A stretch of 64,000 bases of DNA from Sinohyriopsis cumingii. Lineage: Eukaryota > Mollusca > Bivalvia > Unionida > Unionidae. Below the pieces are notes generated by a model, which saw only the letters and a program-made list of their open reading frames with translations, had not been told where the DNA came from and ran no database searches. The first letter of the stretch is position 1; each line of letters begins with the position of its first letter. This document shows positions 18,735 to 64,000 of this stretch, one piece after another. Location of the stretch: contig CM068839.1 of assembly GCA_028554795.2 (NCBI GenBank), positions 45,524,940-45,588,939 on the forward strand. The letters are read 5' to 3'. The position numbers were made by a program, and so were the translations under genes.

Positions 18735-19790
18735 TTTGGGATATGCCTGAAACAGGTAATGTGATATTAAATATGTCTGAAAGAGAAAATGGAATGTTAA
18801 ATAGTTTGGGATATTCCTGACACATGAAATTGATTATTAAATACTTTGGGATATGCATGAAAGCGGAAAAGGAATATTAAATAGTTTGGGATGTGCCTGA
18901 AAGATAAAATGGAATATTAAATAGTTTGGGATGTTACTGAGCGAGAAAATGGAATATTAAATCGTTTTGGATATGCCTGAAAAACAAAATGGAATATTAA
19001 ATAGTTTGGGATATGCTTGAAAGAGGAAATGGACTATTAAATAGTTTGGGATATGCCTGAAAGAGAAAATGGAATATTAAATAGTTGGAATATACCTGAA
19101 AGAGGAAGTGGAATATTAAATAGTTTGGGATATGCCTGAAAGAGGAAACGGACTATTAAGTAGTTGGGATATACCTGAAAGAGGAAATGGAATATTAAAT
19201 AGCTGGGATATATCTGAAAGATAAAATGGAATATTAAATAGTCTGGGATGTGCTTGAAAGATAAAATGGAATATTAAATCGTTTGGGATATACTTGAAAG
19301 ATAAAATGGACTATTAAACAGTTTGGGATGTGCCTCAAAGAGGAAATTGACTATTAAATAGTTGGGATATGCTTGAAAGAGGAAATGGACTATTAAATAG
19401 TTTGGGATATGCCTGAAAGAGAAAATGGAATATTAAATAGTTGGGATATACCTGAAAGAGGAAGTGGAATATTAAATAGTTTGGGATATGCCTGAAAGAG
19501 GAAACGGACTATTAAGTAGTTGGGATATACCTGAAAGAGGAAATGGAATCTTAAATAGCTGGGATATATCTGAAAGATAAAATGGAATATTAAATAGTCT
19601 GGGATGTGCCTGAAAGATAAAATGGAATATTAGATCGTTTGGGATATACCTGAAAGATAAAATGGACTATTAAACAGTTTGGGATGTGCCTCAAAGAGGA
19701 AATTGACTATTAAATAGTTGGGATATGCTTGAAAGAGGAAATGGACTATTAAATCGTTTGGGATATGACTGAAAGAGAAAATGGAATATC
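18735..19790. repeat. 40-bp tandem array
   Basis: About 26 units with GGAATATTAAATAGTTTGGG and ATATGCCTGAAAGAG. A block of about 360 bp (nine units) is duplicated (around 19020-19360 and 19380-19720). It joins the following 33-bp satellite directly. Confidence 0.92.
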
Positions 19791-22700
19791 GATATAGACG
19801 CTAAATGAAAATATATGGCTATCGATACAGACACTACATACCGATATAAAGCTATCGATAAAGACACTACTTGACAATATCTGGTGATCGATACAGACAC
19901 AACATGACTATCTGCCTATCGATACAGGCACTCCATGACCATGTCTGTCTATTGAAACAGACACTACATGAAGTTATCTGGCTATCGATATAGACACTAT
20001 ATGACAATATCTGGCTATCGAAACAGGAAATACATAACAATATCTGGCTATCGATATAGTCACTACATGGCAATATCTTGATATCGATACAGACGCTAAA
20101 GGAAAATATATTTCTATCGATAAAGACACTACATTACAATATCTTTATATCGATACAGACACTACATTACAATATCTTGCTATCGATACAGTCACTACAT
20201 TACAATATCTTGCTATCGATAAAGACACTACATGACATTCTCTGGTAAACGATAAAGACACTAAAAGAAAATATATGGCTAACGATAAAGACACTACATA
20301 ACATTATCTGGTAAATAATACAGACACAAAAGAAAATATATGGCTAACGATATAAAAACTACATGACAATATATGGCTATCGATACATACGCAAAAGGAA
20401 AATATCTGGCTATCGATACAGATGCTAAAGGAAAATATATGGCTATCGAGACAAACACTACATGACAATATCTGGATATCGATACAAACGATAAAGGAAA
20501 ATATCTGGCAATCGAAACAGGCGCAACATAACACTATCTGGCTATCGATACATACGCTAAAGGAAAATATCTGACAATCGAAACAGACATCACATGACAA
20601 TATTTGGCTATCGATTTAGGCGCTAAAGGAAAATATCTGGCAATCGACACAGACACTACATAACACTATCTGGCTATCGATACAGACGCTAAAGGAAAAT
20701 ATCTGGCAATCGAAACAGACATCGCATGACAATATTTGGCTATCGATACAGGCGCTAAAGGAAAATATCTGGCAATCGATACAGACACTACATAACACTA
20801 TCTGGCTATCGATACAGACGCTAAAAAAATATCTGGCAATCGAAACAGACATCACATGACAATATTTGGTTATCGATACAGGAGCTAAAGGAAAATATCT
20901 GGCAATCGATACAGACACTACATAACAATATCTGACTATCGATACAGATGCTAAACGAAAATATGTGGCTATCGATACAAACACTACATAACAATTTCTG
21001 GCTATCGAAAAAGAATATACATCACAATATCTGGGTATCTATGAAGACACTACATGGCAATACCTGGCTATCGAAACAGACACTACATGACAATGGCTGG
21101 CCATCAATACAGAAACAACATGACAATATCTGGCTATCGATACAGCAACTATATGGCAATACCTGGCTACCGATACAGACGGTAAATGAAAATATTTGGC
21201 TATCGATACAGACACTACATTACACTATCTGGTTATATATACAGACAATACATGACAATATATTGTTATCGAAACAGACACTACATAACAATATCTGGCT
21301 ATCGATAAAGACGCTCAATGAAATATTTATGGCTATCGATACAGACACTACATGACACTATCTGGTTATTGATACAGACACTACATGACAATATCTGGCT
21401 ATCGATACAGACACAAGATGACAATATCTGGCTATGGATACAGACACTACATAACAATATATGGCTATCGATACAGACGCTAAAGTAAAATATCTGGCTA
21501 TCGATACAAACACTACATGAAAACATCTGGCTATCGATACAGACGCTAAATGAAAATATCAGGCTATCGATACAGACACAACATGACAATATCTGGCTAT
21601 CGATACAGATGCTAAAGGAAAGTATCTGGCAATAGACACAGACACTACATGATACTATATGGCTATCGATACAAATGCTAAATGAAAATATATGGATATC
21701 GATACAACATTACATTACAATATATGGTTATCGAAACATACAATACATGACAATCTCTGGCAATCAATACAGACACTAAATGACAATACCCGGCTATAGA
21801 AACAGACAGATGATAACATAACCTGACTATCGAAACAAATGCTACATGACAATATCTTGCTATCGATACAGCCGCTAAAAGAAAATATATGGTTATCGAT
21901 GCAAACAGTACATGACAATATCTGGCTATCGAAATAGACAATACATGACAATATCTTGCTATCGATACAGATACCAAATGGCAATACCTGGCTATCCAAA
22001 CAGACACTATATGACAATATCTTGCTATCGATACAGACACCAAATGACAATACCTGGCTATCCAAACAGACACTATATGACAATATCTGGCTATCGATAC
22101 AGACACCAAATGGCAATTATCGGGCTATCGATACAGACACTACCTGACAATATCTGGCTATCCTGACAGACACTACATGACAATATCTGGCTATCAATAC
22201 AGATGCTAAGTGAAAATATATAGCTATCGATAAAAACACTACATGACAATATCAGGATATCGAAAAAGACAATACATGGCAATACCTGGCTATCGAAACA
22301 GACATTACATGACAATATCTGGCTATCGATACAGACACTACATGACATTATCTGGCTATCGATACAGACGCTATAGGAAAATATCAGGCTATGGATACAG
22401 ACACGACATGACAAGATCTGGCTATCTAAAAAGACAATACATGACAATATCTGGCTATTGATACAGACACTACATGGCAATTCCTGGCTATCCAAACAGA
22501 CACTACATGACAATATCTGGCTATCGATACAGACGCTAAAAGAAACTATCTGGCTATCGATACAGACACTACATGACGATATCTGGCTATCGATACAGGC
22601 ACTACATGGCAAAACCTGGTTATCGAAACAGACACTACATGACAATATATGGCTATCCATGCACACACTACATGACAATATCTGGCTATCGATACAGAAA

Positions 22701-24510
22701 CAACATGACACTATATGGCTATTGATACAGACACTACATAACAATATCGGGCTATCGAAACAGAAAATGCATGACAATATCTGGCTATCGATACAGACAC
22801 CAAATGGCAATACCTGGCTATCCAAACAGACACTATATGACAATATCTGGCTATCGATACAGACACCAAATGGCAATTATCGGGCTATCGATACAGACAC
22901 TACCTGACAATATCTGGCTATCCTGACAGACACTACATGACAATATCTGGCTATCAATACAGATGCTAAGTGAAAATATATAGCTATCGATATAAACACT
23001 ACATGACAATATCAGGATATCGAAAAAGACAATACATGGCAATACCTGGCTATCGAAACAGACATTACATGACAATATCTGGCTATCGATACAGACACTA
23101 CATGACATTATCTGGCTATCGATACAGACGCTATAGGAAAATATCAGGCTATGCCTACAGACACGACATGACAAGATCTGGCTATCTAAAAAGACAATAC
23201 ATGACAATATCTGGCTATTGATACAGACACTACATGGCAATTCCTGGCTATCCAAACAGACACTACATGACAATATCTGGCTATCGATACAGACGCTAAA
23301 AGAAACTATCTGGCTATCGATACAGACACTACATGACGATATCTGGCTATCGATACAGGCACTACATGGCAAAACCTGGTTATCGAAACAGACACTACAT
23401 GACAATATATGGCTATCCATGCACACACTACATGACAATATCTGGCTATCGATACAGAAACAACATGACACTATATGGCTATTGATACAGACACTACATA
23501 ACAATATCGGGCTATCGAAACAGAAAATGCATGACAATATCTGGCTATCGATACAGACACTAAATGGCAATACCTGGCTATCCAAACAGACACTACATGA
23601 CCATATTTGGATATCATTACATAAACTACATGGCAATACCTAGCTATCGAATAGACACTACATGACAATATCTGGCTATCAAAACAGACACAACATGACA
23701 ATATCTGGCTATCGATACAGATACTACATGACAATATCTGGCTATCGAAATAGACACTACATGACAATATCTGGCTATCGAAATAGACACTACATGACAA
23801 TATCTGGCTATCGAAATAGACACTACATGACAATATCTGTTTATCGATGCAAGCACTACATGGCAATATCTGGCTATAGAAACAGAAAATATATGACAAT
23901 ATATGGCCATCGATATAGACACTACATGGCAATACCTGGCTATCGAAATAGACACTACATGACAATATCTGGCTATCGAAATAGACACTACATGACAATA
24001 TCTGTTTATCGATGCAAGCACTACATGGCAATATCTGGCTATAGAAACAGAAAATATATGACAATATATGGCCATCGATATAGACACTACATGGCAATAC
24101 CTAGCTATCGAATAGGCACTATATGACAATATATGGATATCGATACAGATTCTATATGACAAAATATGGCTATTGAAACAGGAACTACTTGACAAAATCT
24201 GGCTATCGATACAGACGCTAAAGGAAGTTATCTGGATATCGATACAGACACAATATGACAATATCTGGCTATCGATACAGACACTACATGGCAATACCTA
24301 GCTATCGAAACAGACACTACATGACAATATCTGGCTATCGAAACGGAGGCTACATGATAATACCTGGCTATTGATACAGACACTACATGACAATATCTGG
24401 CTATCGAAACAGAAAATACACGACAATATCTTGCTCTCGACACACGCACACTACATGACAATACCTAGCTGTCGAAACAGACGCTAAATTAAAATATATG
24501 GCTGTCTAAT
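19786..24510. repeat. 33-bp satellite, about 140 units (4.7 kb)
   Basis: The unit holds ACAATATCTGGCTATCGATA then CAGACACTACATG. The period is 11 codons, so long open frames occur on both strands, including an artificial Cys-rich reading. Higher-order structure is present: a four-unit (132 bp) repeat around 20.5-20.9 kb, a nearly identical 760-bp duplication (about 22035-22795 and 22795-23555), and a local duplication at 23.8-24.1 kb. Confidence 0.96.
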
Positions 24511-33416: not shown

Positions 33417-34309
33417 GGGCCATGAGTGGCCGAGTGGTCTAAAGCGCTCTCCGTTACGGATCACTGCCATCTCACCTCTGTCTGCGCTGGTTCGAGTCTC
33501 ATATTCAGCCAATGTGGGTATGGTGGCACTCACCAGATAATATGTACTTTTGAGAGAGTGACGTATGTAAGGTGAAGTAGTTCGCATTTAAAACATGCAC
33601 AGTGGAGAGAATGTTTGCATACCTCTATGCTACATTAATGTAATGTGGATGATATTTCTTTTGGATATTGTACTTTTGGAAATTTTACATGATTTAAGCA
33701 CACTGCTAACTAAAATGACTCCTCCCTTGTGTTAAAAATCAGTCTGAATTAATCTAAAGTACACTATACATAGCAGCTATTAAAATAGGGAAAATGAATT
33801 TTGCCAGACTAGACAATACCAGCTTCTGAAAGTGCAATGAATGAATTACCAAATATATAAAATGTAAAAAAAGTTATCGGCTCTTTTTTATACAATTTAC
33901 CTCTGAAGTTCAGGAAGTGAAAATGACCAAGTAGAGCTAGCACTTTTTTGAAAGGTGCACATTTGAAGTAAGGCCAAGCTGTATACTCTATAACCCATAG
34001 TACACCCATCAATCATACACCAAAATAAAGGGAATTAAAGGTTCTTTGCATTATACCTAAGATATACAAGGTCTTTTCTAAATAGCCAGTATAACCAGTG
34101 AGGAAAGCCGGGGACATTCTTTTTCTTTAAAATCCTAACCCTATGCAAAATGCGAAACTGTATAGCGCCACCTACGTGAGAAAGCTTGCCAGTAGCTTCT
34201 CGTGGGTCGGTGGTTCTTTCTGGGGTTTTTCCGGGTTCTTCCTCCACCATTAATACTGGCCGCCATGTATCGTGTGCTGAAAAATGGCGTTAAACCCCAC
34301 ATCATCATC
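33417..34309 (+). mobile_element. Retroposon (family B) inserted in the 26-bp array
   Basis: It begins with a tRNA-like head (GTGGCCGAGTGGTCTAAAGC as A-box region, CTGGTTCGAGTCTCA as B-box region). It ends with a tail block (TTCCTCCACCATTAATACTG, GCCGCCATG, AATGGCGTTAAACCCC) typical of molluscan SINEs. Between head and tail lies about 650 bp of AT-rich unique sequence, longer than a usual SINE, so the element either carries an internal insertion or is composite. The flanking array unit is identical on both sides. Confidence 0.75.
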
Positions 34310-36120: not shown

Positions 36121-38111
36121 ACATTAGTAGCGGCAGGTGTTTGATTGTTGTTGTTCGTCCTTTGAACGGTCATTAGATGAAGCGTTGACTGGTGATGTTG
36201 CTGTAGTGGCTGACCAGGACAATTTGTTTTCTATCAGGCACATTTGACAGGAGATGCCAATTAGTTTGCTTGTTAATAGAGTATGTGTTGCTTTTCTGAG
36301 AACTGCACTGCTCATGCTTTTGCACTACCTGTAGTTGTCCTCCATTCACAATATATAGCTCCAGCATGGATGGGATCCCGCCTCATGAAGCGACCATGTG
36401 CGAGATCCTTCCAAGTCTCTGCGTCAGTTTTGAAGTGTTTCGTGGATGACTTGAGGAAATCATTAAAGCGTTTCTTCTGAAAACCTTGAGATCGTCTTCC
36501 CTTCTTTAGGTCGCAGAAGAAGGTCTTTGGGAATCGCTCTTCTGACATCGTGGTGATGTGGTCTACCCATCTCAACTGTGATTTCGTCAGTATAGTGTAG
36601 ATGATTGGCAAACCTCAGTGTCCGGTTCTCTGTTGGCAAACCTCAGCGACTGCACTCTTTTCGGCAAACCTCAATGTCTGATACTCTGTCCTATCATCTT
36701 ATCCTCATTAGTTTCCCAAGCAGTCCATGTGAAAATTGTTCAGTTTCATGGAATAGTGCTTGTACACCGTCGAGGTCGCTCAAGTTTACAGCAGGGTCAG
36801 TAAAACAATGGCTTTGTATGTCTTTTGTTTTGCTTATAGACTGATACTTCTGCGCTCCCACCACATGCACGTAGTGTGCAAAGGTTGCACCTGGTGCAGA
36901 TTGGTGCACCACCTTTGTATTATTGATGCTGATTGCGAGACCGAATTTGTCACACGCTGAAGAGAAATGATCGATACCTTGTTGCATGTCAAACTCAGGG
37001 AACGGTCGTCAACAAATACGAGATTACGAACAGTCACTTCCCGTAACTTTATCTTCCTCAGCAGTCTTCTCAGATTGAACTAATTGCCGTCAGACTGGTT
37101 TCTGATGTCCAAACCAGTGTCAAAGTCATGGAAAGCATCAGTAGTGATGGCTGATAGGATCATGTTAAAGAGTGATTGGGCAAAGCCACAGCCTTGCTTG
37201 TCTCCTATGGTGAATGGGAATGGTGACGATGACTCATCGCCATCCACAACACAAGCAAAGTATGCCATTATGGCATTGCCCAACAATCCCGATGAATTTC
37301 TCTGAGCAATCGAATTTTGCCTTGATCTTCCAAGAGCACTCTACGGTTCTCTATGTCAGCTCGATGAATGTCGTGTCCAGGTTCGACTTCTGTTCTTGCA
37401 ATTTATTCTGGAGCTGACGAGCTTCAAACACCAAGTCTATGGTCCCTTGTTATTTCATGAAGCCACACTGACTCTTTGGCAGCAGCCATTGACCGATGTG
37501 ATGTACAAGATGACTGGCTGACTTCGGGCAAGAATTTTGCCAGCTATTGACAACACTTGGATGTCTCTATGGTTGTTTCATGATTGTTTGTTACCGTTCT
37601 GCTTGTAATAGTAGACGATGGATGCATTTTTGTACTCTTGGGATACAGTTATCTTAGTCAACATTGGCTAGAAGAGTTCAGTAAATTCAGTAAGCCATCT
37701 GCGACTCTCCAGCTTTGTAGACTTCGGCTAGCACAGCCACTGCTCTAGATGCTTTACCATTTGTCAGCAGGAGGATTACTTTCAGCTTCTGTCAGCTCTG
37801 GAAGATCTGCAAGTGTTATGTTGATTTCCTCTTGGTGAGTCGATCAGTTGCCACCTTGATGATAGATGACTTTGATCGAGTATGTTGTTTAAATGTACTG
37901 TCCATGTTCGAAGTATCATTTCTTTTTCAGTGATCAGAGTGACGCTGTCAGAACTCGTATATGAACATGTTCCTGACGAATGTGTTCCGTAGATTGTCTT
38001 CAAAGCATCATAGAAGTCCCTCATGTCATTCATATCTGTGTATGATTGAACTTCGTCTGCCTTATAGCGCTCCCCCAAGTCTTGCAACTCTCTGGGTTTG
38101 TGCCCCGGTTT

Positions 38112-38347
38112 AGACATACCAAAGACTTATAAAAATGGTACTAACAGCTGCCTCGCTAGGCATTCAGCGTTAAGAGTTTAGTGTTAGGACTGGTCGGCCT
38201 GGTGTCAGGATAATGTGCCTGGGTGGGACATGATGCTACATGTCTGCGGCATGATGCCTCAGCACTAAACATTACCATAAGCTTCAACACTGCAGACATC
38301 TTAGATAAATGACTGAAAAATTATGAAAACTACGTTAAAAATCCAAG

Positions 38348-41053: not shown

Positions 41054-44000
41054 AAATAATATATTTCATTTGAAAATAGTCTAACGCATGTATTGCTTTG
41101 AAAATGGCTGTAAACTTATAATGGACTTAAAATGGTCTAAAACGTATTTTATTGCACTTCAAAATGGTCTAAAACATATATTGCACTTGAAATGATCTAA
41201 AACGTATATTGCCTTAAAAATGGTCTAAAAGGTATATTGGCTTAAAATTGGTCTAAAACACATATTGCCTTAAAAATGGTCTAAAAAGTATGTTGCCTTA
41301 TAAATGATCTAAAACATGTATTGCCGTGAAAATTGTGTACATCATATTGCCTTGAAAATGGTCTCAATCATATTTTCTTTAAAATGGTTCTAAAACATAT
41401 AATGCACTTGAAAATGGTCTAAAATATAAATTTCCTTGAAAATGGTCTAAAACATACATTAGCTTGAAAATTGTCTAAGGAATACATTGCCTTTATAATA
41501 GTCTGAAACATACATTGAATTGAAAATGGTCTAAGGCATACATTGTTTTTATAATAGTCTGAAACTTACATTGAATTGAAAATGGTCTAAGGCATACATT
41601 GCCTTTATAATAGTCTGAAACATACATTGAATTGAAAATTGTCTAAGGAATACATTGCCTTTATAATAGTCTGAAACATACATTGAATTGAAAATGGTCT
41701 AAGGAATACATTGCCTTTATAATAGTCTGAAACTTACATTGAATTGAAAATGGTCTAAGGCATACATTGCCTTTATAATAGTCTGAAACATACATTGAAT
41801 TGAAAATTGTCTAAGGAATACATTGCCTTTATAATAGTCTGAAACATACATTGAATTGAAAATGGTCTAAGGCATACGTTAGCTTTAAAATGGTCTAAAA
41901 TATATAACGCCTTAAAAATTGTCTAAAACATATATTGCCATGAAAATTCTGTACATCACATTGCCTTGAAAATGGTCTCAATCATATTTCAACACAAATG
42001 GTTCTAAAATATACATTGCACTTGAAAATGGTCTAAAACATACATAGCTTGAAAATGGTCTAAGGCATGCGTTGGCTTTAAAATGGTCTGATACCAAAAT
42101 TGGTGTGAAAATGGTCATAGACATCCATTGGCTTGAAAATGATCTAAGATATACATTGGCTTGAAAATGGTCTAATACATACATTGGCTTGAAAATGGTC
42201 TAATACATACATTGGCTTGAAAATGGTCTAATACACACATTGGCTTGAAAATGGTCTAAGGCATGCGTTGGCTTTAAAATGGTCTGATACCAAAATTGGC
42301 TTGAAAATGGTCATAGACATCCATTGGCTTGAAAATGATCTAAGATATACATTGGCTTGAAAATGTTCTAATACATACATTGGCTTGAAAATGTTCTAAT
42401 ACATACATTGGCTTGAAAATGGTCAAAGGCATACATTGGCTTGAAAATGGTCTTACGCATACATTGGCTTGAAAATGGTCATATACATACATTGGCTTGA
42501 AAATGTTCTAATACATACATTGGCTTGAAAATGGTCTAAGACATACATTGGCTTGCAAATGGTCTAAGGCATACATTGGCTTGAAAATGGTCTTACGCAT
42601 ACGTTGGCTTTAAAATTGTATGAGATATAAATTGGCTTGAAAATGGTCTAATGCATATATTGGCTTGAAAATGGTCTAAGACATACATTGGCTTGAAAAT
42701 GGTCTAAGACATACATTGGCTTGAAAATGTTCTAAGGCATACATTGGCTTGAAAATGGTCTAAGACATACATTGGCTTGAAAATGGTCATATACATACGC
42801 TGGCTTGAAAATGGTCTAAGGCAGACATTGGCTTGAAAATGGTCTAAGGCATACATTGGCTTGAAAATGGTCTTACGCATACGTTGGCTTTAAAATTGTA
42901 TGAGATATAAATTGGCTTGAAAATGGTCTAAGGCATACATTGGCTTGAAAATGGTCTTACGCATACATTGGCTTGAAAATGGTCTAATATATACATTGGC
43001 TTGAAAATGGTCTAAGACATACGTTGGCTTGAAAATGGTCATATACATACGCTGGCTTGAAAATGGTCTAAGGCATACATTGGCTTGAAAATGGTCTAAG
43101 GCATACATTGGCTTGAAAATGGTCTTACGCATACGTTGGCTTTAAAATTGTATGAGATATAAATTGGCTTGAAAATGGTCTAAGACATACATTGGCTTGG
43201 AAATGGTCTAAGGCATACATTGGCTTGAAAATGGTCTAATACATACATTGGCTTGAAAATGGTCTAAGGCATACATTGGCTTGAAAATGGTCTAATACAT
43301 ACATTGGCTTGAAATGGTCTAATACATACGCTGGCTTGAAAATGGTCTTAGGCATACATTGGCTTGAAAATGGTCTAAGGCATACATTGGCTTGAAAATG
43401 GTCTAATACATACATTGGCTTGAAAATGGTCATATACATACGCTGGCTTGAAAATGGTCTAAGGCATACATTGGCTTGAAAATGGTCTAAGACATACATT
43501 CGCTTGAAAATGGTCTAATACATACATTGGCTTGAAAATGGTCTAAGGCATACATTGGCTTGAAAATTTTCTAAGGCATACATTGGCTTGAAAATGGTCT
43601 AATACATATATTGGCTTGAAAATGGTCTAATACATACATTGGCTTGAAAATGGTCTAAGCCATACATTGGCTTGAAAATGGTCTAAGGCATACATTGGCT
43701 TGAAAATGGTCTAAGCCATACATTGGCTTGAAAATGGTCTAAGGCATACATTGGCTTGAAAATGGTCTAAGGCATACATTGGCTTGAAAATGGTCTAAGG
43801 CATACATTGGCTTGAAAATGGTCTAATACATACATTGGCTTGAAAATGGTCTAATACATACATTGGCTTGAAAATGGTCATATACATACGCTGGCTTGAA
43901 AATGGTCTAAGGCATACATTGGCTTGAAAATGGTCTTACGCATACGTTGGCTTTAAAATTGTGTGAGATATAAATTGGCTTGAAAATGGTCTAAGACATA

Positions 44001-45630
44001 CATTGGCTTGATAATGGTCTAAGGCATACATTGGCTTGAAAATGGTCTAATACATACATTGGCTTGAAAATGGTCTAATACATACATTGGCTTGAAAATG
44101 GTCTAAGATATACATTGGCTTGAAAATGGTCATAGACATCCATTGGCTTGAAAATGGTCTAATACATACATTGGCTTGAAACGGGTCTGATATTTACATT
44201 GGCTTGAAAATGGTCTAAGGCATACATTGGCTTGAAAATGGTCTAAGGCATACATTGGCTTGAAAATGGTCTAAGATATACATTAGCTTGAAAATGGTCA
44301 TAGACATCCATTGGCTTGAAAATGGTCATAGATATACATTGGCTTGAAAATGGTCTAATACATACATTGGCTTGAAACGGGTCTAATACATACACTGGCT
44401 TGAAAATGCTCTAATACATCCATTGGCTTGAAAATGGTCATAGACATCCATTGGCTTGAAAATGATCTAAGGCATACATTGGCTTGAAAATGGTCTAATA
44501 CATACATTGGCTTGAAAATGTTCTAAGGCATACATTGGCTTGAAAATGGTCTAAGGCATACATTGGCTTGAAAATGGTCATATACATACATTGGCTTGAA
44601 AATGTTCTAAGGCATACATTGGCTTGAAAATGGTCTAAGGCATACATTGGCTTGAAAATGGTCTAAGGCATACATTGGCTTGAAAATGGTCTTACGCATA
44701 CGTTGGCTTTAAAATTGTATGAGATATAAATTGGCTTGAAAATGGTCTAAGACATACATTGGCTTGAAAATGGTTATATACATTCGCTGGCTTGAAAATG
44801 GTCTAAGGCATACATTGGCTTGAAAATGGTCTAAGGCATACATTGGCTTGAAAATGGTCATATACATACATTGGCTTGAAAATGTTCTAAGGCATACATT
44901 GGCTTGAAAATGGTCTAAGGCATACATTGGCTTGAAAATGGTCTAAGGCATACATTGGCTTGAAAATGGTCTTACGCATACGTTGGCTTTAAAATTGTAT
45001 GAGATATAAATTGGATTGAAAATGGTCTAAGACATACATTGGCTTGAAAATGGTCATATACATACGCTGGCTTGAAAATGGTCTAAGGCATACATTGGCT
45101 TGAAAATGGTCCAAGGCATAGATTGGCTTGAAAATGGTCTTACGCATACGTTGGCTTTAAATTTGCATGAGACATAAATTGGATTGAAAATGGTCTAAGA
45201 CATACATTGGCTTGAAAATGGTCATATACTTACGCTGGCTTGAAAATGGTCTAAGGCATACATTGGCTTGAAAATGGTCTAAGACATACATTGGCTTGAA
45301 AATGGTCATATACTTACGCTGGCTTGAAAATGGTCTAAGACATACATTGCCTTAAAAATGGTTTAAAACATACATTGCCTTAAAAATGGTTTAAGACATA
45401 AATTTTCTTTAAAATGGTCTAAGACATAGATTTTTTTTTAAAATGGTCTAAGACATAGATTGGCTTTAAAATGGTCCAAGATGTAAATTGGCTTTAATAT
45501 GGTCGAAAATACACATTGGCTTTAATATAGTCTAAGACACACATTGGCTTTAATATGGTCTAAGACACACATTGGCTTTACAATGGTCTAAGACACACAT
45601 TGGCTTGAATATGGTCTAAGACGTCCTTGA
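41054..45630. repeat. 28-bp satellite, about 160 units (4.6 kb)
   Basis: The unit is CATTGGCTTGAAAATGGTCT plus AAGGCATA. The left edge is diverged and includes a 56-bp dimer phase (41480-41880), the core is uniform, and the right edge decays from about 45350. A marker variant (TTTAAAATTGTATGAGATAT) recurs near 42609, 42889, 43142, 43952, 44708 and 44988, often 280 bp apart, showing ten-unit higher-order repeats. Confidence 0.95.
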
Positions 45631-51060: not shown

Positions 51061-51747
51061 AACTGAACTACCGCTGCCTCCCATCCATTACGAGAGTTAA
51101 ACAGTTAAACCAGAGCATGGTTGTACATAACCAGTCGGTTAAGTCTAGTTAGTAATTGCTTGGGGAAAACTGGTCAAATAACTCAGATAAATATGTTTAA
51201 ATGTTGCAGTATCAAAATTCAAATCGAACTTACCCAAAGTCGTTATATATAACGCAGATAAATCATTAATTTACGACTCAATCATATTACCAACGTTTAT
51301 TCAACTAGTCGACAACTTTAACTTGAATCAGAGAGGTGGCAATCAGAAATCCTATACAGTAACAACAAAAGCAATAAGTTCTAAGGAAAACAAGCCATAG
51401 TAAGAAACAATGAATCTGTGCATTATTTTGATAAGATTTTCCTTCATATACCATTTTTGCCGCTTTTGTAATGACGCTTTGGAATACTTCGTATTGGTCA
51501 GTTTACTATATTTTTTGCACGTCAGTGTATTTTCCACTGCATTTTCCACGGAAGTGGTTTTTCTTCCACGGCAGTTTATACCTGTAATAACACGAGTAGC
51601 GCAACCCGTCTGCATTGTCTTTACTATTTTTAGAGCGAATATTTTACATATGGAAAAGAGGAAAATCTCCCTATGGCAAAAGTTGCCTTTCTGCGTATGC
51701 AGCAAAATCAATATTGTATCTTTGACTTTAAAACTGAACACACAAGT
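51061..51747. other. Non-repetitive spacer
   Basis: Unique sequence with overlapping open frames on both strands, none with recognisable domains. Confidence 0.5.
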
Positions 51748-51871
51748 GTTGTTGTTGTTGTTGTGGGGTTTAACGCCATTTTTCAGCACGATAGGCTATA
51801 CATGGCGGCCAGTATTAATGGTGGAGGAAGAACCCGGAAAACCCCGGAAAGAACCACCGACCCACGAGAAG
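51748..51871 (-). mobile_element. Retroposon family B, 3' fragment
   Basis: On the minus strand it reads CTTCTCGTGGGTCGGTGG through CCACCATTAATACTGGCCGC to GGCGTTAAACCCC, then (AAC)n. This matches the tail of the element at 33417-34309, so the two are copies of one family. The head is missing. Confidence 0.85.
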
Positions 51872-52339
51872 TGTTCCATTATACAGTATGAATTGTATAT
51901 AGTTGATAGCCTAATCTATTTATACAGTATTAATTGTACATTCATGATAGTGTAATATATTTAAAGTCGCCAAACAAACTAGCTTTCTTTTATGAGGAGG
52001 AGTGAAGTATGCGTGATAGAGCTGAAGGAATGACATCTGTAGCACTTGGTCCTATAAGATATATTGTTATAGACTTTACCATGGAAACAAACTGCATTTG
52101 CATTGTCAGATTGCCAGATGCATACATAAAATAAACGTCACGCGGTATAAATATGAGTCAATGTTTATTTTATCCAGATCCAGTGACGATATACATGCAG
52201 CGACAAGTGAAGAATGGGAGACAAGATGTGGACCAAGCAAGGCCGTTATACAAACAAATAGATGGATAGACGGATGAATGATTGAATGAATGATTGATAA
52301 AAAGAAATATGAAGGATCGATGCGTGTCTGTTGGATGGT

Positions 52340-53610: not shown

Positions 53611-55199
53611 AACTGGTTTAAGGAGAAAGAGTTTGTGATGAACGTAACTTTCATCTGTTGTAATTAAAACCGGTCGACAATTTCTATAAAATGTTATTAT
53701 AATGTAATATGTATGCCATCTTTATCTAATATACATGTCATCTTTATTTAACGTGCATGTCATCTTTATCAAATATATAGCATCTATTGCAACAAATGGT
53801 AAGTAAAAGCCGAAGAACGATAACAGATTTAAAATTGCATTTAATTCACTACTTGTTGGAACATGAACATTTATATGAAGAGAACATGGACACATAAAAA
53901 TCTTTAAAAGCAAACTATGAAAATGTCTTAGCTAAATGTGAAAAGAGAATTGCACATGTATCAGTTTCTAAATTTCATAAACCTTGGCAATGGCTTTAAA
54001 ATGTTGTTCAAAAATGCCTGAAAGCTCTATAAATGCTTTCTTTGTTCGCAGTTGCATATAGAACCTGAAATTTAAGGTCAAATGTTCCCTTTTAGTAAAT
54101 GCGTTACAATGCACGAATTAAAAATTTCCTCTCTGAAGCCGTATGTCTATATGCTGCTGTACGTTATCATACTAAATTGTTGATAAACTTCCTGATGTTA
54201 TTTTATCCAATATGTTTTATCTTTGATATAGTTTAAATTGTCACAAATTGAGACTTCAAAGGAAACACTATCAAACATTTATATCATTCTGTTCAAAGCA
54301 TGAACACATGTTCAGTTATAATTAGTTGTGACGTTTGATTTCGAGGAACTAAGGAAAATGTGTTAAATCTCGTTTACACTTGATACTTATTTAAAGACAT
54401 CCGATGTAATTTCTATTACCAACATTTAGTATTGTTTCATTTGCATTTGACTCTTTAATAATTTTCTAAGAACTGTGAATGTTTAGCAACATAATATATC
54501 CATCCCCATTAAGGTCTGCCCTCAGCCTTGCATACTAATTGTAAGAAACCGTTAGTCATCCCAATTCCCAATACTTCTCTCAATAATTCTTCTAAATATA
54601 TTTACATAAGAAATCATCCCTGACAAATGCGTGTACCTTTTAGCTACAGGTTAAAGTTATGATCGACAGCCCTATATCAATGTGATAAAAATTATAATTT
54701 TTTTTAAAGAAGTTTTAACAATACTAGTATAAATGTATACCAATATTAAAGTCTACCAGTATGAACGGTAACGTCTACCAGTATGAACGTCTACCCTCAG
54801 GAACAATATGCCATATGATCATTTGTCATTGATTAAATGACTACAAAAAAATAAAATGGCAGTGTGTACATACTTTGAATATAACATTTTCATCAATTTA
54901 TTGGAAATAGTGTGCGTCAAAAATTGCGCAGCAATTAAGCAATACACATTAGGAAATCATTTAAGCAATACACATTAGGAAATGCATCTTTTTATAGGTC
55001 ATTAATAGTATATTCTTTGCATGATGGTTTTGAAGAACATTCCTGATCGATACGTTTATTGTCTTGAGGATATTTTCTTGTTAAATCCAGACCAGCCAGC
55101 TGGTCAGTATTTGATATAAAATTAAATCACATGCATCAGATACGATGCGGCCTGTTGAAATCCTTGAAAATGTTTTGTCTTTCATTTTTAATTAATTTA
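53611..55199. other. Non-repetitive 3' flank of the BarH-like gene
   Basis: Unique AT-rich sequence, including the candidate poly(A) signals. No other gene was recognised. Confidence 0.55.
54897..55060 (-). terminator. Candidate poly(A) signals of the BarH-like gene
   Basis: AATAAA occurs on the minus strand at 55060-55055 and at 54902-54897, about 0.4 and 0.55 kb beyond the stop codon. Either would give a plausible 3' UTR that includes the small 18-bp array at 55.2-55.3 kb. AATAAA is frequent by chance in such AT-rich sequence. Confidence 0.35.
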
Positions 55200-55325
55200 C
55201 ATTGGACACTTTCCTATAATTGGACTCTTTCCTATAATAGGACTCTTTCCTATAATTGAACTCTTTCCTATAATTGGACACTTTCCTGTATTTGGACACT
55301 TTCCTGTAATTGGACACTTTTTCTC
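55200..55325. repeat. ~18-bp tandem array, probably in the BarH 3' UTR
   Basis: About seven units of GGACTCTTTCCTATAATT and variants. It lies 130-250 bp beyond the stop codon and so may be transcribed. Confidence 0.85.
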
Positions 55326-55451
55326 TTGCAACTTTAAATCGTTCACGGCTTACGTTCTTGTAGTTTCTTCTTGTATCTGTTCTAACTTTCGACTGAAGTT
55401 CCTACTTCCTTTCCCTTACGGAAGACAATGCAACAGTTCCGTTACAGATTT

Positions 55452-55704
55452 TCAAAGTGGGGGCGCTAGATGACTCATGCCGGGTATATACATTCGAGGA
55501 ACCAAATGACGATGGGAAGAAAGTGGAGATGTTCCGTGCCGGTAGTACAAACTGTCGATGTTTGAGAGTAAATTGTGCGAAGATGAGTGGGGTACGTATG
55601 AACTCCAATATGGACTGGGTTGCAACATTCGGTGCATGCTTGCGTAGCTTCCAGCTTCTGCCAATAGCTCGAGACCCACTGCCGTCTGACGCTTCCATTT
55701 GGTT
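55452..55704 (-). CDS. BarH: BarH-like gene, coding exon 3 (end of homeodomain and C-terminus)
   Basis: The acceptor is a pyrimidine-rich tract ending CCAATTCCAG. The first exon base (55704) completes Arg53 of the homeodomain. The exon continues [20 protein letters not shown] and ends [17 protein letters not shown] with a TGA at 55454-55452. The GLELLAEAG block directly after the homeodomain and the LVPR...IPG block near the end are what I expect of BARHL C-termini. In place of the Ala/Ser-rich stretch of vertebrates it has a short Ser/His/Tyr-rich segment. The phase joins exactly to exon 2, which confirms the two belong to one gene across a 4.3-kb intron. Confidence 0.93.
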
Positions 55705-57991
55705 CTGGAATTGGACAGACAGATTTAATATAATTTGGTTCTACATAACGCATAAACATATGTGATAGACATGATAATTGAAGATTTCCGTAGTTTTCAA
55801 AGAATTACTGAGAATGTTCCAGTTTCTTATTTTTATGGACTGATGTAAAGAATCATATTTTGACTAGATACATATTTTGCTATTTTATATTGCATACAGT
55901 ATCACAGTTATAATATACATGACCATATGCATATTGTACTGTTTTGTATTGCATAGTTACAATTTGTTTGACTAGATGCATATTGTACTGTTTTGTATTG
56001 CATAGTTATAATTTGTTTGACTAGATGCATATTGTACTGTTTTGTATTGCATAGTTACAATTTGTTTGACTAGATGCATATTGTACTGTTTTCCATTGCA
56101 TAGTTATAATTTGTTTGACTAGATGCATCTTGTACTGTTTTGTATTGCATAGTTATAATTTGTTTGACTAGATGCATATTGTACTGTTTCGTATTGCAGT
56201 TATAATTTGTATGACTAGATTCATATTGTACTGTTTTGTATTGCATAGTTATAATTTGTTTGACTAGATGCATCTTGTACTGTTTTGTATTGCATAGTTA
56301 TAATTTGTTTGACTAGATGCATATTGTACTGTTTTGTATTGCATAGTTACAATTTGTTTGACTAGATGCATATTGTACTGTTTTGCATTGCATATTTATA
56401 ATTTGTTTGACTAGATGCATCTTGTACTGTTTTGTATTGCATAGTTAAAATTTGTTTGACTAGATGCATATTGTACTGTTTTCTATTGCATAGTTACAAT
56501 TTGTTTGACTAGATGCATATTGTACTGTTTCGTATTGCATAGTTATAATTTGTATGACTAGATTCATATTGTACTGTTTTGTATTGCATAGTTATAATTT
56601 GTTTGACTAGATGCATATTGTACTGTTTTGTATTGCATAGTTACAATTTGTATGCCTAGATGCATATTGTACTGTTTTGTATTCCATAGTTCTAAAATGT
56701 ATGACTATATACATATTGTACAATATTGTATTGCATAGTTATAATTTGTATGCCTAGATGCATTTTGTATTGCATAGTTATGATTTGTACGACTAGATGC
56801 ATATTGTACTGTTTCGTATTACATAGTTATAATTTGTATGACTATATGCATATTGTACTGTTTTGTGATGCATAGTTCTAAAATGTATGACTTGATGCAT
56901 ATTGTAGTGTTTTGTATTGCATAGTTATAATTTATATGACTAGATATATATTGTACATTTTTGTATTGCATAGTTATAATTTGTAAGACTAGATGCATAT
57001 TGTACTGTTTTATTTTGAATACTTATAGATCGTTTGAATCCTTGGTTGTTGGTGTTGCAATAACACGTTCACAAACAAACATCCACACATACAGACAACT
57101 ATATATACTTACACTTACAGATTGATATATCTACTTACACACACATACAGACAACTATATATACTTACACTTACAGATTGCTATATCTACTTACACACAC
57201 ATAAAGACAACTATATATACTTATACTTACAGATTGCTATATCTACTTACACACACATACAGACAACAATATATACTTACACTTACAGATTGCTATATCT
57301 ACTTACACACACATAAAGACAACTATATATACTTATACTTACAGATTGCTATATATATACTTACACTTACAGATTGCTATATATATATACTTACACTTAC
57401 AGATTGCTATATCTACTTACACACACATACAGACAGCTATATATACTTATACTTGCAGATTGCTATATCTACTTACACACACATACAGACAGCTATATAT
57501 ACTTATACTTGCAGATTGTTATATCTACTTACACACACATACAGACAACTATATATACTTACACTTACAGATTGCTATATGTACTTACACACACATAAAG
57601 ACAACTAAATCTACTTACACACACATAAAGACAACTAGATCTACTTACACACACATAAAGACAACTAAATCTACTTACACACATATATAGACAACTAGAT
57701 CTACTTACACACACATAAAGACAACTAAATCTACTTACACACATAAAGACAACTAGATCTACTTACACACACATAAAGACAACTAAATCTACTTACACAC
57801 ACATAAAGACAACTAGATCTACTTACACACACATAAAGACAGCTAGATCTACTTACACACACATAAAGACAACTAAATCTACAATATATACACCAACAGT
57901 GCAAAACGTGATATCCCTGGATCCTATGAAAATTAGAATTTCTTATATATCTTGTACCAAGTAATAATAGCATGATCCCTTTTTATACTAC

Positions 57992-58031
<40 letters not shown>

Positions 58032-60279
58032 TTGCTGATGTGCCACACATGATGGCATTGTATTTTTTCCCTCCATTGTATAATGCTTTTCTCTTGTTCA
58101 AGTGACTTTTAAAGTTTACATTTTACATTGTTGTGTCCTAGTTGCATATTTTAAGACAGTAATATTTGTCTTTACATATTTGTGTCCTAGTTGCATAATT
58201 TAAGTCAAGAATATTATTTTACATTTGTGTCATAGTTCCATAATTTAAGTCAGCCTATGCGATTCATGTCATATAAATATATATATAACATTTAGTAAAA
58301 AATGACTATTGACTCAATATGAAACGCGCTGGTGCAATCTGAATGGACAAAGAAATGAAACACTTTGGTGCAATCGGAGTGGACAAAGCTCGTTTTCAAA
58401 ATCCACGTTTGACTTAGATGTTCTTCTGGTACATTGCCTGCTTTACCTGCGATTATGTTTCTTTCATGTTAATTAAAACTAACATAAACCCAAAATGCCC
58501 ATCTGGTGTCCTGATATCTGTGATATATCAAGCAGAATTAATGACAAAAATTTTCACACCATATGTTTGAAAGACAGGTAATCCTCAAGGAGCAATCATA
58601 ATGATGGTTTTATCGGCAATTCCCCGAGGCAGCGTGAGATAAATTACTCAGTTAAAAATTGATCTTTCGCTTTTCATTACCTGTGCCTGTGGGATCTGAT
58701 AAAATGCTTTATAATTATCGCCATGTTTTTTAGTAGCAGATATTAAAATTCAATGTGATATGACATTGCATGATGGAGAGGCCAAACCTTAGTTTGTTTT
58801 CTATAATTACACGATGGAAAGGTCAAACATGAGTTCTGTTTTCTACAATAAATAACTTGATTAAAATAATCATTTGAACAATTTATATAATCCGATTACA
58901 AGTAGTGAAGAGGTACGAGATGTTGCAAAGGTCAATGCAACCTTGATGTCATATTTCATACGCTAACACCTCATGTCAGAGAAATATGGAAGAAAGATAT
59001 AATATACAGCAACCATCACCTTAAATTTGTGGCTTGCATAGCTTTATTGTCCAAACTGTTCAACTTATAACAAAATATGAGCTCAGAAATGATCATTAGA
59101 AAGAATTAATTAAAAAGTAGTAATTCAGTATAATATGATACTGCACGATGGCGAGGCCAAACCCTAGTCAGAAAACATGAATTTTATACCAAGCCATAAT
59201 CCTAAATATTTTTGGCAAGCAAAATAGTTTTGTGCTAAAAAATAGTGTGATTTTATCGCACAGTAACATTTCGGCGGGAAGTTCTGGACATTCTTTTTTC
59301 GTGGAATCGTTTGTTAATGTGAGTCTTATCATATATATCCTTACATATGCAAATCAGGAATCTGCAATGTGTCTACAATTAATTATAACTGTATTATAAG
59401 AGACCGATGTTTGGTTCCATGTTATGTGTCTATAATTAATTATAACTGTATTATAAGTGACCAATTCTTGGAGTTTGTTATGTGTCTATAATTATTTATA
59501 CCTGTAATATAAGAGACCGATGTTTGGTGCCTGTTATGTGTCTATAAGTAATTATAACTGCGTCATAAGAGACCAATGCTTGGATTATGTTATGTGTATA
59601 TAATTAACTATAACTGTATTATAAGTGACCAATGCTTGGAGTTTGTTATGTGTCTATAATTATTTATACCTGTATTATAAGAGACCGATGTTTGGAGTCT
59701 GTAATGTGTGTATAATTAATTATAACTATATTATAAGAGACCGATGTTTGGTGTCTGTTATGTGTGTATAATTAATTATAACTATATTATAAGAGACCGA
59801 TGTTTGGTGTCTGTTATGTGTGTATAATTAATTATAACTATATTATAAGAGATCGATGTTTGGTGTCTGTTATGTGTGTATAATTAGTTATAACTATATT
59901 ATAAGAGACCGATGTTTGGTGTCTGTTATGTGTGTATAATTAATTATATTATAAGAGACCGATGTTTGGTGTCTGTTATGTGTGTATAATTAATTATAAC
60001 TGTATTCTAGAGGACTAATGCTTACCTTCTGTTCTGGTACCACGTCTTCACTTGTGTGTCCGTTAAATTCAGTTTCGCAGCAAGCTCCATGCGATCCTGG
60101 ACACTGAGGTACTTCTGTCTTTCGAAAGTCTTTTCTAAACTGTTTAGCTGATGGTCGGTAAAAGCAGTTCTTGCCTTTCGTGGTTTTTTGCATTTCGATG
60201 ATAAATGTGAAGTATTGGCATCCGGAGATACAGAACTTGCTTCATCTTCTGTAAGATAAGAAAGTAATTGAAGTTATTG

Positions 60280-60354
<75 letters not shown>

Positions 60355-63300
60355 GGGTCTATTAATATTAATTCTATTAGTCTATCCTTATTAACCTTTC
60401 TCAGCATAATGTTTTATAGCATTTTTCAGATTTTCCAGCTACTGCTGTGGAAAATATAACAGTTATATTGTCTCTTTAAATATAATTTACCTACATTCAA
60501 ATCTTGTATACTTAAAACAAGTTAGATAGTGATCTTCGCTCCATATAGAATAATATTGTGTACTAAACCAGTTATAGCAAAGTTCCAAACGCTGATTTCT
60601 ATCATCATACATTTCAATTTACTTGACAGAGATATTTTATATTTGGAGGTTGGGAACATAGTAGCATGATAAAGCCCTGGGAAAAATGGGAAAATAACAG
60701 CAGATAAAAGTCTACCTTCAAACACATAGTCAACAAAAAAGTCCAAACCAAAAAATGGTTAAATAACAGTACATAAAATGTACACCTTCCCAAATATTCA
60801 ACAGAAAAGTCCAAATGAAAAATGGAACATATTTACTTTAAAATAAGGTGAACTGGTTACGACGTCTTTCAAACAACAATGTCAATGCGCTGTTTCGTCA
60901 CAGGACACGGTACAGCATATAACATGTATTTATAACTTCTCAATACAGTTGCATCTTTGTTAACTCACACTTACTTTCATGCACTTCAATTTTGTGTCAT
61001 ACCTTTCGTCAGTTTCTTCAAAGTTTTATTTGTAAAATTTAAGCCACCTTGAAAATAATTGACCATGAAATTTCAATAGTCTTCGTAGCTTGACATAATG
61101 TAACTCATATTTCCAGCGGGATGTGTTGTATTGTTGTTTACTAACTTATCAGTTAACTCACATATTCTTGAACACCAATGACTTATTCTTCAAAGTGGTT
61201 TGCGATAAAGTAACAAATCTCTTGTCATTGTTATGTTAATCTTGTGTTGAAAATCGTATACAGGTTTAAGACTGTTCTGTGACTATTGTTAACAGTCATA
61301 CATTTCAATGTATCTGTTACAACAGCGCCTAATGACATTGTCACCATGCTTTTCATGGTCATCACCCGTGGAAATGTTTCCTAATCTTGAGTTAGAAGGG
61401 TTAAACAATTTTAAATCGATATAAGTTATCACTCAATCAGAGTTTTGCAAGTTCATAATATCCCACTAACAATCGAATGGACCTGCAATTCAGATTTGTT
61501 AATATGGAGCGTTGGATAAGAATCTTCTTTTGTTTCAATTATTGCAAAGACATAACTTGAAACTTCAGTAATCACTGCATCGATCAGAGCGGCCTTGCAA
61601 CCACACAGATAGGGTGACGATACGAATGAGAGATTTCCATTAGAAGGTATAGCAACAACATTTCAAGAAGAATGAAGGATGACTCTGAGAGATGTGTTGA
61701 AACAAAGAACACGATGCTATCGCAGGAATTCTTCGATTAAAGTACACTATATATTGTGTACATTTTACAGAGCTTTACGACCATAAAACTGCTCCAGAGG
61801 TACGATCTGTCGTCGCCAGAAAGGGTCACAAATCAATGATCCTAAATGTGATAGAGGCGGGCTCAGTAACATCACTTGTATTGTACTAAACTAGAAGTAT
61901 GTTACAGCTCTCTATCAGTGTAATTAATACTAATGAGCTACGATTTTGTTACCTGCTTCCTCCATAAATTTGTTATTGGATATGAACAAGATGACGTTTC
62001 GATACAGAACAGTGGAAGGAATTGATTGCAAAGATGGTTTTTGAAACAGATACACACTACATTGTCTTCTGCTGCCGTAATGGTTACGTCTGTTCGTTCC
62101 TGGAGCAATGGATTCATGGCAAAAGAAAATTGTATCTAAAGTGTAAAACTTGATGTAAATGATTAGCGTTAAAAAAAATGTTGAATGTGTGTAAAACAAA
62201 GAAAGATGACACAAATGTACACATGTATACACCCCAAATAAAAACACAAATCAGAGCATGTACAAACCAAGAAGAAAAAAGCTGAATAAGTACAAAACCT
62301 AGAAATATAAGACAAAATCAAAAACTCCCAAAATAAAGCAAAGATCACATAAAAGTCATCGATTCGAAATTGTTGCCGCGCATAAATATTACGGTGTATG
62401 GGACGATTTGCAAGTGTATTGTTTTCTAGTCCTACAAACTTCATATAGTTAATTGTCCTGAAAACTATACACAGGTCATAATCGTACACACTCTTTAGTG
62501 ACTTGCATATAGTTTATGAAGACTTTTATATTATGATTATTACGTAGCTGACATTAGGTATGCAAACATTTGTACATTTATTTCGTATAAGTAGCTGTAA
62601 TTTTATCATATAAACAATTAAGATACACGTGTGCAGTGTTTGCTTACAATTTTGCCGAGTATGTAAGTATGTATTGTATCTGTTTTATAACAAAAATATA
62701 AAACAAGGATAAAAACTAATCTGGCTTTGGATAGCTAAATAACAACAAATTAAAAATTACTAAGGAAATTCGATTTCTGAACAAAGCATTTATTTCAGTT
62801 AACAAAAAGACATGTTGTTCACTTAAATTGCATCTTAAATCTGCAATAAAGAAAACATACATACTTACACATACATACATACACATACACACATACATAT
62901 ATACATACATACATACATACATACATACATACAGACAGACAGACAGACAGGCATGGGCATAACGCCTGACACTGATAGATGTTCAGATTTCTACATGTTA
63001 TAACTTACCGTCATCTGAATATGCTGGTGACGAACTTCTGCTCCTTGTCTTGTTTTGTAACTCATGAGAAGAATATCTAGGATTTCTGTTGCATGAATTG
63101 AATTCTTCATCTTTAGCACTGTCTTTGTCTTTATTTCCCAATATGTCAGTGATTAGAAACGATGGTTTTGCACTATATTTAGAATTACAGTGTGACATTA
63201 TGACATCCCTCTTATCGGCAAAATCTTTTTTCAACTTGTTGCTGTGCATTCGTGATTTATCCGCTTCCTTATACTTTGTGACGTTGTCTAGTTTACAGCC

Positions 63301-63474
63301 AACCTTTGTATCCTCAAAATCATTTTCAATGTCCACATGTTCATCACCTTCAGAAAGCATACGTGATTCTTCAGGAGTCATGTTCGCATTTGTCGAATTT
63401 CTTGGATTTTGAATCATTGTATTGCTTTTGTTTTTCCACTCTTTGTATTGAATATCGCCCTTGGCTTGACACAT
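55452..63474 (-). CDS. BarH: BarH-like homeobox transcription factor, three coding exons
   Basis: Spliced coding sequence: 63474-63009, 60248-60026, 55704-55452 (minus strand). The total is 942 nt, encoding 313 aa and a TGA stop. Intron 1 is phase 1 and intron 2 is phase 2; both have GT-AG borders. The order along the protein is a Lys/Asp/Asn/Ser-rich N-terminus, a FIL-type motif (SFLITDILG, residues 105-113), an acidic Ser-rich linker, a homeodomain at residues 178-237, and a C-terminal block beginning [13 protein letters not shown]. Homeodomain landmarks Phe8, Leu16, Phe20, Trp48, Asn51 and Arg53 are present, and position 49 is Tyr (WYQNRR), which is typical of BarH proteins. Family knowledge: BarH/BARHL proteins are nuclear sequence-specific transcription factors in neural and sensory development, and the FIL motif resembles Groucho-binding EH1 motifs. 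The length and three-exon layout match vertebrate BARHL1 (about 327 aa). The start is the least certain part, because an unseen upstream exon is possible. Confidence 0.93.
55870..57020. repeat. 49-bp tandem array in BarH intron 2
   Basis: About 23 units with GTTTGACTAGATGCATATTG, TACTGTTTTGTATTGCATAG and TTATAATTT. The middle is uniform and the edges diverged. Confidence 0.93.
57080..57890. repeat. 56-bp to 30-bp tandem array in BarH intron 2
   Basis: The left part has units of about 56 bp (ACTTACACACACATACAGAC with ACTTACACTTACAGATTGCT). The right part has 30-bp units (TCTACTTACACACACATAAA). The words are shared, so one form probably arose from the other. Confidence 0.92.
59365..60010. repeat. 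56-bp tandem array abutting the homeobox exon
   Basis: About 12 units with GTATAATTAATTATAACTAT and ATAAGAGACCGATGTTTGGT. It ends at the exon 2 splice donor, and its last partial unit is continuous with the donor region. Most units hold overlapping TAATTA words. Confidence 0.93.
60026..60248 (-). CDS. BarH: BarH-like gene, coding exon 2 (most of the homeodomain)
   Basis: This 223-bp exon is bounded by an acceptor (CTTATCTTACAG, ending at 60249) and a donor (AG|GTAAGC, intron from 60025). It encodes an acidic Ser-rich linker and then homeodomain residues 1-52 plus two bases of codon 53. Readable pieces are [32 protein letters not shown] and [10 protein letters not shown]. These match the BarH class closely, including Tyr at position 49 of the recognition helix instead of the usual Phe. 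The intron falls between bases 2 and 3 of the Arg53 codon. A 56-bp tandem array runs up to the donor, and a (TA)n tract lies about 30 bp beyond the acceptor. Confidence 0.95.
60278..60351. repeat. (TA)n microsatellite next to the exon 2 acceptor
   Basis: About 37 TA units, beginning some 30 bp upstream (minus-strand sense) of the BarH exon 2 acceptor. Confidence 0.95.
62855..62950. repeat. (CATA)n/(GACA)n microsatellite
   Basis: Tetranucleotide tracts in intron 1, about 60 bp from the exon 1 donor. Confidence 0.92.
63009..63474 (-). CDS. BarH: BarH-like gene, coding exon 1 (N-terminus with FIL motif)
   Basis: This exon encodes residues 1-155 plus the first base of codon 156. The ATG at 63474-63472 is the first in frame, with an in-frame TAA one codon upstream (TAA CAA ATG), so the open frame cannot extend further without splicing. 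The protein is hydrophilic and rich in Lys, Asp, Asn and Ser. Residues 105-113 read SFLITDILG, which is the FIL-type repressor motif of BarH proteins. The exon ends [12 protein letters not shown] before a strong donor (G|GTAAGT, intron from 63008). Only one FIL motif is visible, while vertebrate BARHL proteins carry two. Either the lineage kept one, or an upstream exon holds the other. Confidence 0.85.
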
Positions 63475-63908
63475 TTGTTATCTGTCCTTCTGCAGCTTTT
63501 CTGTCTTCGCGTCCTTGCGCCTTTCTTTTACTTTAATTTCAGAATGAGAATTATCTGTCCATTCATTATACCTAACAGTATCTAACACCTTGTATCTATT
63601 TTCGCAGTTTATTTTGTTTCTGTGTTTCTTGAAGTTAAAATGTATTCAGATTTAATGCACTGATCGCACTTTGCTGCTGTTCACTACCAGACACGGAATA
63701 TCTATCCGATCATGAAATAATTGTTTTATGCAAATTATTTCATACATCCACCAAATGAATAGGAAGCGAGCAAAAGCTATCCTCGCTGATTTTCAAGACG
63801 AGCTTGACAATCTGAAATGTGTTGACAAAGTGTTTAACATAATACATATGTTTGTTTCCTTTCTGAAGATGGCAAGCCACTTAACTGAAACGTGGGTAGC
63901 GTTCTTCC

Positions 63909-63916
63909 GTTTTATA
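63909..63916 (-). promoter_or_regulatory. Candidate TATA box upstream of the BarH-like gene
   Basis: The minus strand reads TATAAAAC here. If used, transcription would start near 63880, leaving a 5' leader of about 400 nt before the ATG at 63474. That leader shows no other recognisable motif. A single TATA-like octamer in AT-rich DNA is weak evidence. Confidence 0.3.
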
Positions 63917-64000
63917 CTCTGACATCGTCCTTGGATTTGCAGTCCTTATTGACTCCAGAAATGATAATGACAGTGATAATGATTTACTTGCAAATTACAT

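Follow-up and report, generated by a model that had tools for sequence, protein, structure and literature searches.

A probable BarH (Barhl) homeobox gene in a repeat-rich window of Sinohyriopsis cumingii, and a second copy on the same contig

Does a stretch of the Sinohyriopsis cumingii genome that is largely filled with tandem repeats hold a complete BarH gene, and is it the only one in this genome? The window, i.e. the whole stretch of DNA analysed, comprises 64,000 nt (C16:45524940-45588939; GC content 35.0%). A sequence-only reading had claimed that three separated minus-strand segments join in phase into a BarH-like homeobox gene of 313 codons. In our view, the locus very probably holds a protostome BarH (Barhl) gene that looks functional; two such genes were found in the genome.

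The joining of the segments was confirmed. Three minus-strand segments, joined in phase over GT-AG sites, gave 313 codons followed by TGA; the splice sites were canonical, and the number of inner stops in the product was 0. The gene model reads as follows:

63009..63474, minus strand: exon 1, 466 nt, from the ATG to the donor gtaagt; N-terminal region with the FIL motif; phase 1 junction
60249..63008, minus strand: intron 1, 2760 nt, GT-AG; 306 nt are tandem arrays
60026..60248, minus strand: exon 2, 223 nt; acceptor ttacag, donor gtaagc; phase 2 junction
55705..60025, minus strand: intron 2, 4321 nt, GT-AG; lies inside homeodomain codon 53
55452..55704, minus strand: exon 3, 253 nt including TGA; acceptor ttccag; end of the homeodomain, conserved block and C-terminus

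Besides an acidic/serine stretch, exon 2 covers residues 1-52 of the homeodomain plus two bases of codon 53. The proposed ATG is the first possible one in its open frame because an in-frame TAA (63480-63478) lies one codon before it. As the N-terminus hardly aligns with that of the second copy described below, the start codon of exon 1 is an assumption. The gene had also been called easy to miss, which is fair for reading a single frame, but a plain homeodomain search already lists exon 2.

The protein features attributed to the product were all present: a full homeodomain with Tyr49 (within WYQNRR of the joined product), one FIL motif (within SFLITDILG) and a block after the homeodomain (GLELLAEAG). 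An excerpt of PMC3638342 characterises BarH proteins by Tyr49, one or more FIL motifs and, directly behind the homeodomain, a conserved block of 22 residues (BARC). The product shows the first two of these, and its block lies in the place of the third. The positions are:

60026..60183, minus strand: homeodomain, exon 2 part (coordinates counted from the exon joins and the Pfam/PDB alignments)
55683..55704, minus strand: homeodomain, exon 3 part; last base of codon 53, then TKWKRQT (coordinates counted from the join and the PDB alignment)
63139..63159, minus strand: FIL motif FLITDIL, Groucho-binding by analogy; a stretch common to both copies
55617..55682, minus strand: 22 residues after the homeodomain, at the position of the BARC block

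An 11-residue part of the 22-residue block is kept in the second copy. We take GLELLAEAG to be part of the BARC block and present in Barhl proteins.

Similarity searches placed the product close to BARHL2. The Pfam profile search returned a single family (Homeodomain, PF00046, 3.7e-23). In the PDB sequence search (threshold 1e-3, passed by 124 distinct sequences, of which the best 60 were considered), the seven best sequences were all BARHL2 (top E 2.3e-33), followed by 2dmt (1.2e-20). The latter is the best chain named 'Homeobox protein BarH-like 1', presumably BARX1. The homeodomain was identical to BARHL2 at 54/60 positions (letters taken from the PDB alignment), to human BARHL1 at 55/60 and to Drosophila BarH1 at 49/60. 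Identity to the four other BarH rows was 49-59/60; it was 36-38/60 for three Barx rows and 37/60 for BSX. The rows of human BARHL1, Drosophila BarH1, BSX and two of the Barx proteins were entered from background knowledge. Compared with BARHL2, the window gene was identical over PRKARTAF and over a 25-residue stretch, with six differences in between. The recognition helix is therefore the same as in BARHL2. The BarH-like identity proposed earlier is thus supported by BARHL2 as the best relatives, together with Tyr49, the FIL motif and a post-homeodomain block in the BARC position.

Homeodomain trees gave a weak result. In a 13-row tree of 60 columns (5/13 rows from background knowledge), the BarH rows were kept together, but weakly: the branch parting the 5 BarH rows from the 8 others had a support of 58/61 and was recovered in 56% of the 200 bootstrap trees. 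With a midpoint root, two Nk1 rows fell on the BarH side. A 22-row tree parted BarH from Barx at 96/92; other NK rows were unplaced, and two rows, DBX1 and the genome's own Barx, were out of register. The 13-row tree dropped the MSX1, DBX1, TLX1, LBX1 and NKX2-5 rows (all from background knowledge), two own Msx rows and two own Lbx rows, and its own Barx row was corrected; the group tests of the two trees were not alike. The trees do not contradict BarH, but 60 columns cannot separate the NK-like families.

The joined protein was searched against the assembly (2,904,868,851 bases, 1138 contigs). This gave 63 matches with E up to 1e-3 (127 scored of 159 candidates), three of which were the window exons. 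The next two matches were BarH-like and lay on the same contig and strand: C16:28710275-28710487 (80% identical, exon 2) and C16:28699859-28700092 (55%, exon 3). Upstream of both, an open frame with an 11-residue stretch was found and joined as exon 1. The resulting paralogue is composed of:

C16:28699802-28728910, minus strand: BarH paralogue, 315 codons in three exons, with the two intron phases of the window gene
28728910-28728445, minus strand: paralogue exon 1, 466 nt from the first ATG; one FIL motif as read
28710483-28710285, minus strand: paralogue exon 2, 199 nt
28700084-28699802, minus strand: paralogue exon 3, 283 nt

The two genes are about 16.9 Mb apart on one chromosome-sized contig. 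With its three exons and identical intron phases, the paralogue lends independent support to both junctions of the window gene model, at the level of the sequence. That both first exons measure 466 nt is probably due to chance because their alignment is poor except at the FIL motif. With 127 of 159 candidate matches scored, at least two BarH genes are present in the genome. We take the remaining matches inspected (16 loci, L014-L028, and the Hox-like L001-L008) to be other homeobox families. L004 and L008 presumably carry Lox-type Hox letters, a sign of a spiralian.

The homeodomains of the two copies were identical at 59/60 positions, and their N-terminal tails were almost unalignable. In the 73-codon stretch that begins with KKPRKART and ends with GLELLAEAG, third codon positions differed between the copies 33 times, first positions 6 times and second positions 0 times. 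This amounted to one amino-acid difference, with a pS of 0.749 (saturated) and a pN of 0.012. The pattern therefore indicates constrained coding sequence around the homeodomain, as in two old working copies. A blastn comparison of window positions 54800-64000 with the 38.5-kb paralogue region revealed no conserved non-coding element; its four matches were the homeodomain exon, exon 3 and two short weak ones (E 1.65e-4) in the 49-bp array of the window.

Other NK-like families also occurred in more than one copy (L014/L016, L019/L021/L022/L026, L020/L024, L015/L018/L023 and L027/L028). By family, these are presumably two Nk1, four Msx, two Tlx, three Hmx-like and two Lbx loci. Many of the multi-copy loci were on C7, and both Tlx loci were on C327. 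Repeated local duplication may account for these families.

Membership in a different Tyr49-bearing NK-like family, for example Barx, has next to no chance of being right. Barx rows do share Tyr49 and a recognition-helix-type stretch (L017), and the support for the BarH branch in the 13-row tree was weak (58/61). However, the genome contains a separate homeodomain (L017 on C8), which we take to be Barx-like, and only 38/60 of its positions match the window gene, against 49-59/60 for the other BarH rows; in the PDB search, 2dmt lay far behind BARHL2 (1.2e-20 vs 2.3e-33). We also consider it very improbable that the window holds a pseudogene copy of BarH in decay, with the paralogue ~16.9 Mb away as the working gene. 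There is indeed another BarH gene whose exons are intact, and tandem arrays swell the surroundings of the window gene; yet its 313 codons run without a stop or frameshift between canonical splice sites, and the 6/0/33 differences over 73 codons (pS 0.749, pN 0.012) need long constraint on both copies. A processed copy is ruled out by the introns.

An incomplete model, with an upstream exon (perhaps carrying a second FIL motif) or another start missing, is unlikely as well, but less so than the two readings above. In an excerpt of PMC3235082, the majority of vertebrate Barhl proteins carry two FIL motifs, and the N-terminus is hardly conserved between the two copies. On the other hand, exon 1 of the paralogue, as read, also has one FIL motif, and medaka Barhl likewise has FIL2 alone in the same excerpt. 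A scan of the readable ~8 kb upstream with a loose pattern gave two further matches, which were not counted, their frames being only 38 and 24 residues long.

The repeat setting of this gene was checked against other stretches of the genome. Tandem arrays made up 36,017 of the 64,000 window bases (56%) and 16,325 of the 38,501 bases around the paralogue (42%). They covered 5,384/9,940 bases in L031 and 2,205/7,540 readable bases in L030. The controls were few and picked by round coordinates: 425/24,000 bases (about 2%) in six arbitrary stretches, 118/9,505 readable bases in four further parts of C16, 3,347/12,000 in four segments lying some 60-200 kb away from the window and 357/6,000 in two segments close to the paralogue. 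The share in the 22 homeobox loci compared (about 3 kb each) was 9,456/71,298. Against these few controls, tandem richness was high at both BarH loci, faded within 100 kb of the paralogue and was moderate at other homeobox loci. Intron 2 of the window gene consisted of tandem array to 65% (2805/4321 nt), whose repeat units include ones of 49 and 56 bp. The main arrays are:

55906-57027, 57084-57858 and 59367-60006: intron 2 arrays, one of which starts about 20 nt after the exon 2 donor
4985-15387: array with 45-bp unit, 10.4 kb, about 230 copies (TRF)
19787-24503: array with 33-bp unit
41070-45622: array with 28-bp unit

One could imagine that two ancient BarH copies were kept on one contig in minisatellite-rich domains and that the arrays may mark or shape their regulatory domains. 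We give this idea little credence.

Elsewhere in the window, the long frames in the 45-bp-unit array (4985-15387) were rejected as genes because 45 is a multiple of 3 and the frames are open on both strands. To look for other genes, ten of the 174 open stretches outside tandem arrays (45 residues or longer) were compared with Pfam; three matched weakly (best 0.017), none over the curated cut-off. Rfam gave no match at gathering scores in the window. Broken frames at 36315-38126 (minus strand) contained an FVDD-like motif and had no Pfam match over the curated cut-off; they resemble, as we assume, the reverse transcriptase of a non-LTR retrotransposon. A dispersed repeat, with frames reading like MAASI-GGGRTR or WRPVLMVEEEPGK, was seen at window positions 34038-34289 (minus strand) and 51634-51876 (plus strand) and at L030 3821-4153 (minus strand).

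Vertebrate BARHL1 and BARHL2 share with the window gene most of the homeodomain, Tyr49 and the FIL motif, and presumably also the post-homeodomain block. The number of FIL motifs is different: one was found here, whereas most vertebrate Barhl rows in the excerpt of PMC3235082 have two. Three positions part Barhl1 from Barhl2 in this excerpt and were mapped onto the window gene with a shift of one. Here the window gene has N (Barhl2-type), E (Barhl1-type) and K (neither), and these mixed residues fit a lineage outside the vertebrate duplication. The likeness to Drosophila B-H1/B-H2 (Bar) lies in the homeodomain and in the presence of a linked gene pair. The fly pair is treated as a tandem duplication within flies in the excerpt of PMC3235082, whereas the S. 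cumingii copies are about 16.9 Mb apart and their silent sites are saturated.

More than one linked BarH gene has been described in a bivalve before: passages of PMC5322547 give three linked genes (BarH1, BarH2 and BarH3) for the Pacific oyster. In S. cumingii, two were found, and these are far apart on one contig. The main text of PMC7566022 on the Hong Kong oyster has no mention of BarH, and in PMC4604119 Barhl is merely listed among the ANTP genes. Nothing on a three-exon structure of BARHL1 was found among the literature matches listed. A shallow literature search on BarH and freshwater mussels or Unionida found no earlier report of the two genes. The BarH family is thus already known, as are linked copies in bivalves, and these two genes seem to be unreported.

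The function of the product can be outlined by analogy to its relatives. It would bind DNA through its homeodomain, with the preference of BARHL2 for TAAACG and TAATTG; binding of BARHL2 to TAAACG is the stronger of the two according to a section of PMC11996681. The product would be a nuclear repressor whose FIL motif recruits a Groucho/TLE co-repressor, in line with the recruitment of Groucho by FIL motifs in an excerpt of PMC5124293. Annelid and fly relatives suggest that the gene may help to specify subsets of neurons: in an annelid, ganglion cells of the pygidium and the parapodia express Pdu-BarH1 (excerpt of PMC4357181), and Drosophila BarH1 is a marker of dopaminergic and SNa motor neurons (excerpt of PMC3117877). 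Both the repressor function and the expression are borrowed from these relatives. The two copies would go back to one old and perhaps tandem duplication on the sequence that now forms a single contig.

The analysis provides precise exon boundaries for both the BarH gene and its second copy in a large, repeat-rich genome, which can be used in annotation. The view of the family is unchanged, and the data on the two copies are useful for dating the BarH duplications of bivalves.
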